Shown here in pieces: positions 38,036-40,494 of a stretch of DNA of 64,000 bases (position 1 is its first letter; each line of letters begins with the position of its first letter). A model generated the notes under the pieces. It searched no databases, was not told where the DNA came from, and was given only the letters and a program-made list of their open reading frames with translations. Origin of the DNA: Planctomycetota bacterium (GTDB taxonomy: Bacteria; Planctomycetota; Phycisphaerae; UBA1845); assembly GCA_024280855.1 (NCBI GenBank), contig JAJRPG010000102.1, positions 1-64,000 of the forward strand. The letters run 5' to 3'. A program made the position numbers and the translations under genes.

Positions 38036-38102
38036 TATTTACGCGCGTCTAGGTCAGGCTATTGCTTGCCGACAATGCTTGTATCGACTCGCGCCAAATT
38101 GA

Positions 38103-39266
38103 TTACTCCGCATAGCAAGGGCCTTCGCCCGTCCTCATGCAGCGAAGAACGGTCTCCATTAGTGGACGTACTGAGCGAATATTACGTTCTGTTTTTAGTT
38201 GGTCCTCTATAAAGTCGCCGACTTCCACATTACCAGCCGAGACTGTAGACCATAACGCTCCCACCAACCAAAGTCGAACAGCCGCATCTGGTTCGCCAGG
38301 TATCATCTGCATGAGTATGTCGCGGGCGACCGCTTTTTCGTCTGGCGACCCCGTTTCGGAAATGTGATTGAAGCGATTACCAATTTCTCGACGAATCAAC
38401 AGGCTCTGCTTATCAGAAGCATCCACTTGATTATCGAAAAAGTCAGCCGCTAACTGTTCCGGCGATAACGCATCGACTATGGCTTCGTAGTCTCGCACAC
38501 GTTGCCATTCGGACGCGTCTGGATTCTCCCGTCGCGCTTGTCCTGCCACTATGCCGGGGGCAAGGTAAGGCTCCTTTTCCTTAACACTTGGGTCAGCAAG
38601 ATGTTTATTATACGCAATGTGTCCGCGCATCGTTGAACTCTCAGCCGAAGCAAGCAGTTCATCGCACAAACTCATAAATTCCTTAGAATTCATCCGTTTG
38701 CGTAGCATGTCTATCGCACGCTGCCGTTGATATTTGTCCGAATTGTATCGTGCGTGTTGCTGTAATATATCGACGGAACTTTCCGAATTGAACTGAGATG
38801 AAACGGACGGTTCACTTGAATCTTCCTCAGACCAGTCAACGTACTCATCTAAGTCATCGAGGGGAACAATTTCACCTGGCGCGCCAGTCGCTCGTTGCTT
38901 AGGATCAAGAATAACGAGGGTCGGAAATTTCTTTATTCGAAACTGCCTATACGCCTTCGATTCCGCGCCTACCAAAAATCGGAGGTGTTTCTCTTTGACG
39001 TATTTCTCAACGCGCGTTGATGATTCCGCCGACAGGCCCATTGCGACGATGTCTCGTTTATTCCTCAATTTATTCAATTGCGAAACATATCGTCGCGTTT
39101 CTTTCTCACCTCGCACTGTAGAGAAAAATAGCACCACATACGTTCGCTTGTCAGGAACGCGCATGGTATGCGGATTGATCCAATGCTTGGCAGTAATTTC
39201 GGTCGGCTTATTGCCCGTGCTTGGTAAGCACAAAAAGGCGACAGCAATCGTATAAAATATGGTCAT
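38103..39266 (-). CDS. Exported thioredoxin-fold (redoxin-like) protein lacking the CxxC active site
   Basis: 387 residues from the ATG at 39266 (a start at 39284 is possible). A short signal peptide (MTIFYTIAVAFLCLPSTG) precedes a TlpA/redoxin-like domain (about 20-140): the strand YVVLFFSTVRGEKE occupies the position of the usual FWATWCGPC, with no cysteine, then IVAMGLSAESS and the cis-Pro strand KKFPTLVILD. The remaining 240 residues are charged and helical, without recognised motif. It may bind proteins or be a regulatory redoxin rather than an oxidoreductase. The neighbouring minus-strand gene upstream encodes a cysteine-rich secreted peptide 103 bases away. Confidence 0.72.
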   Translation of the reverse strand: MTIFYTIAVAFLCLPSTGNKPTEITAKHWINPHTMRVPDKRTYVVLFFSTVRGEKETRRYVSQLNKLRNKRDIVAMGLSAESSTRVEKYVKEKHLRFLVGAESKAYRQFRIKKFPTLVILDPKQRATGAPGEIVPLDDLDEYVDWSEEDSSEPSVSSQFNSESSVDILQQHARYNSDKYQRQRAIDMLRKRMNSKEFMSLCDELLASAESSTMRGHIAYNKHLADPSVKEKEPYLAPGIVAGQARRENPDASEWQRVRDYEAIVDALSPEQLAADFFDNQVDASDKQSLLIRREIGNRFNHISETGSPDEKAVARDILMQMIPGEPDAAVRLWLVGALWSTVSAGNVEVGDFIEDQLKTERNIRSVRPLMETVLRCMRTGEGPCYAE

Positions 39267-39369
39267 GTGTAGCTCTATCCACAAATATTATAAGTCGCTA
39301 AAGCAAAAAACTACTCGACACAAACATTATTGTATATAGCCCGAATCAAGCGTTCAAATTCGGTACAAG

Positions 39370-39570
39370 CTAATTTATTTTAATACCTTCCGCAGCACAG
39401 TAGTTATCACATTTTGCTTGTTTAGTTCCGGAATAAGCACTACAACTAGTTCCACAAGACCCGTTTTTGCAGCACTGACTACATTGCGAAGATTCGCTTG
39501 GCGACTTACAGCTAGATACGCAACTGTCCGCAACAGCGTAACCTGTCAAGACAAATAAGCACAGTCCCAA
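39370..39570 (-). CDS. Small cysteine-rich secreted peptide; upstream start interrupted by an in-frame TGA
   Basis: 66 residues if begun at the TTG at 39570. A hydrophobic leader (GLCLFVLTGYAVA-D) is followed by a mature part of about 52 residues with nine cysteines in CxxxC, CxxCC and C-x4-C spacings and many Ser/Gly/Lys. No family is recognised; the pattern suggests a disulfide-rich or metal-binding peptide. Upstream in the same frame lies ATG 39612 with a strong AGGAG six bases before it, giving MTMK, then TGA (39598-39600), then SKSIVIAVF joined to the leader. A CGA or AGA in place of the TGA would restore a classic signal peptide (MKRSKSIVIAVF). So the gene may be a recent nonsense mutant, may start at TTG, or may involve read-through. 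Confidence 0.6.
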   Translation of the reverse strand: MGLCLFVLTGYAVADSCVSSCKSPSESSQCSQCCKNGSCGTSCSAYSGTKQAKCDNYCAAEGIKIN

Positions 39571-39612
39571 GAATACTGCAATTACGATTGATTTGCTTCA
39601 TTTCATTGTCAT

Positions 39613-40014
39613 GATCTACTCCTGTATGATGGCATTAAAACTTTCCTCAGACACCTGTTTGACTTTGAAAGCCAACTGAAGCTGCAAATCTACCCCCCCC
39701 AGATATTGTCAAGAGAATATTTTAGCAATTTCATGTGGAGAGTGCCAACATATGTGTCACTTTGGTAGAATTCTATATAATGTGTTGGCAAGGTGGCCCA
39801 TACCCTTCTTTTTGGACATGGGGGAGTCGATGATTATTGTAGTTCCAGGTTCATGCCAGCTATATGCAAGAATAATCATGATGACGACTGAACAGTTGAT
39901 TGATACTGCCTGTTGATTGCGAGCATCCTTCCCCCACCCTTTGCCAGTAGGCAAACAATGGGGCATCCGATGCGAAGAATGGATATCCGATGAAAAGCTT
40001 GGAATGAATCATGA
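39613..40014. other. Intergenic region with family F repeat
   Basis: 402 bases between the divergent cysteine-rich peptide and yidD genes, with a family F copy at 39787-39834 and an ATGGGGCATCCGA stretch (39956-39970) like part of the perfect hairpin at 50015-50050. Confidence 0.5.
39787..39834 (+). repeat. Dispersed repeat family F, copy 2
   Basis: Inverted relative of 5124-5170; shares GGACATGGGGGAGTCGATGA and AAGGTGGCCCAT. The hairpin arm carries one mismatch. Confidence 0.8.
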
Positions 40015-40266
40015 ATGCGTAGCCGAGGTGTGATAGTTCGTGCGTTGATTTGGCTTTGCGTGTTTATTATTCGGGCATATCAAGTTCTGCTGCGTCCATT
40101 TCTCATTGGTCAGTGTAAGTTTTATCCCACCTGTAGCGAGTACGGCGTTGAAGCCCTATCCACGCATGGCCCGTGGAGGGGCGGTCTACTCACCGTTAGC
40201 CGTGTTTGTCGCTGCCATCCCTTCTCCGCTGGAGGAATTGACCCTGTCCCGCCGCGAAAAACGTGA
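40015..40266 (+). CDS. yidD: Membrane protein insertion efficiency factor YidD
   Basis: 83 residues. The hallmark is YQVLLRPFLIGQCKFYPTCSEYG in parts (RPFLIGQCKFYPTCSEYG), followed by HGPWRGGLLTVSRVCRCHPF. YidD sits at the inner membrane face and helps YidC insert membrane proteins. In many genomes it lies in the rpmH-rnpA-yidD-yidC block; here it is separate, with repeats on both sides. The start at 40015 overlaps a 3-codon decoy (ATGAATGCGTAG at 40011). Confidence 0.95.
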   Translation: MRSRGVIVRALIWLCVFIIRAYQVLLRPFLIGQCKFYPTCSEYGVEALSTHGPWRGGLLTVSRVCRCHPFSAGGIDPVPPRKT

Positions 40267-40368
40267 GCCTGTCTTTTAGTTCGGAGATATAGGACGTAAA
40301 TATCTCACACAGCCTCTCTAGTCGTCCGAAAAACCTGTGTGGAATATCAGCGTTGAATGCTCATTATT

Positions 40369-40394
40369 GAGCCGCAGGCTTCAGCCTGCGCGGA
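40369..40394 (+). repeat. Dispersed hairpin repeat family A, copy 5
   Basis: GAGCCGCAGGCTTCAGCC then TGCGCGGA; more perfect palindrome than the other copies. Paired with the inverted copy at 40437-40462. Confidence 0.82.
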
Positions 40395-40436
40395 TTCAAG
40401 ATGTCATGGCGCTGCCGGTGTGTGGGCATTCGTACG

Positions 40437-40462
40437 TCCGCGCGGGCTGGAGCCCGCGGCTC
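40437..40462 (-). repeat. Dispersed hairpin repeat family A, copy 6
   Basis: TCCGCGCGGGCTGGAGCC then CGCGGCTC; inverted relative to copy 5, 42 bases away, so the two form a head-to-head pair upstream of the toroid gene. Confidence 0.8.
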
Positions 40463-40494
40463 GGTTGTGAGATAAGTTGAGGGTTTTCCGAAGT

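Follow-up and report, generated by a model that had tools for sequence, protein, structure and literature searches.

A cysteine-rich peptide gene with an in-frame TGA and a poly-G tract in its putative promoter, in a two-gene cassette of Phycisphaerae

Simple-repeat phase variation has mainly been studied in host-adapted pathogens. In Neisseria meningitidis, unstable homopolymers between the -10 and -35 elements of porA, fetA and opc alter transcription (PMC2791445, PMC3899988). For Planctomycetota we found no report of such promoter-spacer phase variation in the open literature, outside which most subscription journals lie. Two protein groups provide further points of comparison. Small secreted cysteine-rich peptides generally have a signal peptide and a mature part of about 50 residues with 8-12 cysteines, a plan followed by the peptide described here. 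Thioredoxin_8 and AhpC-TSA-like proteins (PF13905, PF00578) carry the thioredoxin-like domain that also forms the N-terminal half of its partner protein. Here we compare with these systems a locus on the minus strand of a 64-kb stretch of DNA (the window) from a Phycisphaerae MAG, a 4.56-Mb draft in 112 contigs with 2.14% contamination. The phosphoglucomutase encoded in the window shares 95% identity with the one from the MAG 'Phycisphaerae bacterium isolate OFTM182'.

The cysteine-rich peptide and its genomic partner

Direct reading and translation reproduce the frame that the earlier note had described, with AGGAG at 39623-39619, a spacing of six bases, an ATG at 39612-39610, MTMK, a TGA and, beyond it, a signal peptide and a nine-cysteine mature part. 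The codons run ATG ACA ATG AAA TGA, placing the TGA (39600-39598) in frame with ATG 39612, and the frame ends at a TAG (39372-39370). Translated from ATG 39612, it reads MTMK, a stop, SKSIVIAVFLGLCLFVLTGYAVADSCVSSCKSPSESSQCSQCCKNGSCGTSCSAYSGTKQAKCDNYCAAEGIKIN and the terminal stop. After the TGA, 75 codons are open and encode a hydrophobic signal segment followed by a mature part with nine cysteines after the predicted cleavage site; one further cysteine lies within the signal peptide. The features of the two genes are as follows.

39619..39623, minus strand: Shine-Dalgarno sequence AGGAG, by direct reading
39601..39612, minus strand: ancestral start of the cysteine-rich peptide, MTMK; the G014 orthologue has MTMR behind AAGGAG, others have MAMR, MKMR and MTGR
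39598..39600, minus strand: in-frame TGA, codon 5; a stop is found here only in the window copy, among the cassette peptides seen
39529..39597, minus strand: rest of the signal peptide, downstream of the TGA, SKSIVIAVFLGLCLFVLTGYAVA, from the translation; helix 3-28 in a single-sequence model
39370..39528, minus strand: mature cysteine-rich region including the terminal stop, CxxxC...CxxCC...CxxSC...CxxYC, in which one near-invariant twin cysteine is Ser
38103..39266, minus strand: partner gene, intact, 387 aa, with a signal peptide, a thioredoxin-like domain without CxxC and a helical C-terminal half, from a Thioredoxin_8 match (4.8e-06) and homologue alignment

The peptide differs from small secreted cysteine-rich peptides generally in that it scores below the cut-off of every Pfam and NCBIfam family and the single-sequence model (mean pLDDT 73.4, helix 3-28) has no match in the PDB. 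A direct search of the genome contigs with the peptide sequence likewise gave no match. The 75 residues after the TGA do match short frames in relatives, and a cysteine-rich frame lies within a few hundred bases upstream of 17 of the 20 partner homologues examined there. With a profile (A3) built from 14 peptide members, into which the window row entered only from after the TGA, we found 19 peptides in the 114 genomes of the order. Seventeen of these immediately precede a partner homologue, whereas two (G086:C4, G093:C25) lie outside cassettes; the window copy is itself a profile match directly upstream of its partner. The common family pattern is CxxxC, gap, CxxCC, gap, CxxCC, gap, CxxYC. The peptide is more than a chance frame: its cysteine pattern and N-terminal context recur in independent relatives, in an unchanged position with respect to the gene downstream. 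The secreted cysteine-rich peptide proposed earlier is genuine. It is the first gene of a conserved two-gene Phycisphaerae cassette, followed by a secreted thioredoxin-fold protein. The result defines a previously unnamed cysteine-rich peptide family tied to a fixed genomic partner.

The distribution of the family is sporadic: G012 has three copies, G049 four and G026 a tandem pair. Neither the peptide nor the partner gene occurs in the same-genus genomes G001 and G002. The nearest partner homologue, in G003 (68% identity), is located at a contig end, and the upstream peptide region is not covered. Given this sporadic, multi-copy distribution and a promoter that may be switchable (see below), the likeliest role of the peptide outside the cell would be at the surface or in cell interaction.

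Partner homologues occur in the same genomes as the peptide relatives, and nine that were aligned (alignment A1) are 26-41% identical to the window protein. The match of the partner to Thioredoxin_8 is weak, and its single-sequence structure model is too poor for use (mean pLDDT 43.6). CxxC is absent from all nine aligned homologues, whose active-site region reads FFSTVRGEKE and similar, and this together with the long helical C-terminal half sets the partner apart from Thioredoxin_8 and AhpC-TSA-like proteins. We therefore rejected the partner as a thioredoxin-family disulfide oxidoreductase: without the motif in these homologues it is, by sequence, not a disulfide enzyme, and a role for it in the disulfides of the peptide is thus unsupported. 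Of the earlier suggestion that a redoxin-like neighbour assists the peptide, the conserved partnership stands, borne out by the linkage in 17 of 20 cases, and the help with disulfides does not.

The surroundings of the cassette are rich in repeats. A dispersed repeat of about 165 bp lies upstream of the peptide gene (39785-39982), with a GGCAAA hairpin at 39932-39963 and many partial copies, mostly of its two 45-bp ends, in its own and in same-genus genomes; it appears MITE- or REP-like. Short GC-rich repeats of the GCCGCAGGCTTCAGCCTGCG type at 40360-40470 have matches at many places in relatives. In the same-genus G001:C82 (L094:3690-5369), the segment corresponding to 38068-40015 is replaced by an unrelated secreted-protein gene on the reverse strand, the product of which has thrombospondin type 3-like repeats. 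The cassette site is possibly a swap site for secreted-protein genes.

The TGA at codon 5

Where the window reads AGGAG, six bases and ATGACAATGAAATGA (MTMK-stop), the G014 orthologue reads AAGGAG, eight bases and ATGACGATGAGAATT (MTMRI...), and the MAMR, MKMR and MTGR N-termini of other relatives likewise continue without a stop. ATG 39612, which the earlier note had regarded as a strongly supported start, is the ancestral start. The profile A3 match to the window reaches 39606, across the TGA, and this extension is not circular because the window row contributed only residues after the TGA. No other family member among the cassette peptides seen has a stop at the codon-5 position. As the match crosses the TGA and no other member stops there, the best reading is that the TGA represents a lineage-specific nonsense change in a gene starting at 39612. 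A recent nonsense change had been among the options raised before, together with a comparison of relatives for the TGA position and cysteine spacing; that comparison returned relatives without the stop and a shared cysteine pattern.

Several observations speak for gene loss and against a programmed event. In the window copy, Ser replaces an otherwise near-invariant Cys, leaving an odd number of cysteines. In G026 the upstream tandem peptide copy is truncated, joined by a deletion to its promoter, and the peptide at G030:C72 lacks its 5' part, while no recognisable peptide was found beside the partners in G063:C7, G105 and G072. The partner frame is open in each of these cases. From these decayed copies and solitary partners, the peptide has been lost repeatedly while the partner is kept. 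Because the 75 codons after the TGA remain open with nine cysteines, either the change would be recent or some product would still be made. The window peptide is a real member of this new family with a probable recent nonsense mutation, which is ordinary in itself.

The open frame and retained cysteine pattern would also suit a UGA that is read through at a low level by a near-cognate tRNA, giving a modest amount of peptide, and in E. coli a UGA with A as the next base is prone to leakage. We nevertheless consider this improbable, as the window copy has lost a near-invariant Cys and no relative has a stop at that position, the latter also speaking against a programmed form of the read-through suggested earlier. 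TGA acts as a terminator in the window, closing 3 of 25 long stop-to-stop frames, which disfavours wholesale reassignment of the codon. To a similar degree we doubt that the TGA stems from misassembly or from mixed strains in the MAG, with the gene intact in reality. The assembly is a draft with the fragmentation and contamination given above, and the species is represented by one genome, but a single substitution called from deep short-read coverage can usually be trusted, and the independent Cys-to-Ser change also departs from the family. Translation from the downstream TTG 39570, or a restart after the four-codon leader, is less credible again: the TTG is in frame, yet no Shine-Dalgarno sequence precedes it, the resulting 14-residue leader MGLCLFVLTGYAVA has no basic residues, and homology continues upstream to 39606. 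Both the TTG start and the coupled leader had been offered as options, and neither finds support here. Selenocysteine insertion at codon 5 was considered because the source genome encodes tRNA-Sec (61.3 bits against an Rfam cut-off of 47). However, no stable SECIS-like hairpin follows the UGA, the downstream sequence being less stable than shuffles (z = +1.3), the position falls inside the cleaved signal peptide, and the relatives have no Cys there. We rejected the selenoprotein candidate and give this reading hardly any credence. The tRNA-Sec gene itself, with anticodon TCA, lies at C98:11895-11989 (L152) of the same genome, and given its presence selenoproteins are likely made elsewhere in that genome. 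The nonsense change remains our preferred reading of the TGA.

Poly-G tracts in putative promoters

Upstream of the peptide gene lies a putative poly-G promoter spacer that was absent from the observations of the earlier note. The layout is TTGACA-ATATCT-G8-TAGATT, a homopolymer between -35 and -10 hexamers that are assigned by consensus.

39719..39748, minus strand: alternative sigma-70-like promoter TTGGCA-18-TAAAAT, situated upstream of the tract and matching at 10 of 12 positions, from a consensus scan only
39707..39712, minus strand: TTGACA, putative -35; the same hexamer stands before poly-G in the G014, G026 and G063 cassettes and at 47 loci of the order
39693..39700, minus strand: G8 homopolymer within the putative spacer of the promoter; no other G/C run in the window reaches 8
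39687..39692, minus strand: TAGATT, putative -10 directly after the tract, giving a 14-nt spacer in the assembly; TAnnnT abuts the G tract at 15 loci of the order

Under a Markov-1 expectation, about 0.8 G or C runs of at least 8 would occur per window, and TTGACA would lie within 0-10 nt of a run by chance in about 0.25% of runs. Sigma-70 spacers are best at 16-18. At 14 nt the assembled state would therefore be weak. This spacing also lies away from the mode of the other loci (19), with -10 elements assigned by consensus only. The second promoter-like site upstream could bypass the tract.

Poly-G tracts after TTGAC are also found in the promoters of the G014 orthologue (TTGACAGAAAGGGTT-G11-TAATAT), of G026 (TTGACAGAAT-G8 and TTGAC-G11-TAG) and of G063:C7 (TTGACAGAACTT-G6). 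In place of poly-G, (TCCCT)8-11 immediately precedes the ribosome site in the G049 and G030 copies. The G078 copy has an A10 tract and G063:C3 a C8 inside its signal-peptide codons. Unstable tracts of such kinds are absent from the three G012 copies, G074 and G084. That unstable tracts of several kinds sit at several positions of this cassette suggests that instability itself has been selected, as opposed to a single tract having been inherited. Several of the (TCCCT)n repeats immediately upstream of cysteine-rich peptide genes lie at contig ends (L084, L086, L087, L089, L093; G049, G030).

We searched the 114 genomes of the order for TTGACA-N(0-10)-G9+, using the reversed motif as control and merging overlaps. 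This gave 47 distinct loci in 27 genomes compared with 3 for the control, with the caveat that the 47 include near-identical copies in G030 and G040 and paralogues in G035 and so are not all independent. Among the 46 loci with sequence beyond the tract, 15 have a TAnnnT immediately adjoining it, against about 1.1% per position. Within 320 bases, 33 of the 47 loci have a Shine-Dalgarno-led frame with a hydrophobic N-terminus, many of them cysteine-rich; this figure is indicative, as the crude test applied a hydropathy threshold, let any of the start codons be chosen and had no background rate. Exported products are thus predicted at these loci as well as for the cassette peptides, which have signal peptides. 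A scan of the phylum found the motif in 48 of 394 genomes, with few control matches. The genome of the window holds two further loci, a G12 in C102 and TTGACAAT-G16 at C82:139193-139216 (L138), the latter before a secreted Cys-containing protein.

Tract length varies between paralogues and species, the window locus being known from one strain. Three paralogous promoters in G035 have 11, 12 and 17 G's, the G030 copies have G13 where the G040 counterpart has G15, and the G002 orthologue of the C82 locus has a shorter, interrupted tract, GGGGAGGGGG. These differences show evolutionary instability between related copies, which is distinct from within-population switching. The tracts may alternatively be read as neutral homopolymers or fixed spacers that do not switch promoters, since the variation seen is only between paralogues or species. 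The strong association with an upstream TTGACA, the abutting TAnnnT and the secreted-protein frames downstream all argue against neutrality, and we regard it as unlikely, though deserving serious consideration. The association of poly-G promoters with the peptide family and with many secreted proteins of the order is a more interesting result than the TGA.

A proposed slippage-variable promoter and its relation to porA-type switching

Taken as a whole, the explanation we favour, and hold to be reasonably probable, is a conserved cassette with a nonsense-hit peptide and a slippage-variable promoter. The poly-G tract would set the distance from -35 to -10, and gain or loss of G would change recognition by RNA polymerase. 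The assembled spacer, shorter than usual, may represent a weak or off state. Such a state would relax selection on the peptide, and because of this relaxation a stop codon could accumulate. The TGA would then abolish or strongly lower peptide production in this lineage, with the partner intact.

A broader proposal, to which we give about even chances, is that slippage-variable promoters (TTGACA, short N, G9+, TAnnnT) in Phycisphaerae and other Planctomycetota may randomly switch secreted, often cysteine-rich proteins, the window peptide having been silenced in two ways, through its spacer length and through a nonsense codon. If true, this would be a contingency-locus system in an environmental phylum, and recurrent poly-G promoters before secreted proteins would extend the random switching of secreted products to environmental bacteria. 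This reading is directly testable from metagenome reads.

The architecture looks like porA-type promoter-spacer phase variation. As in N. meningitidis porA, opc and fetA, the genes encode surface or exported proteins, and a G (or C) homopolymer separates their putative -35 and -10 elements, where a change in length would alter the spacing. The present loci differ in belonging to uncultured Planctomycetota, in encoding small secreted, often cysteine-rich proteins with putative switching, and in that pentanucleotide tracts close to the start take the place of the homopolymer in other cassette copies.
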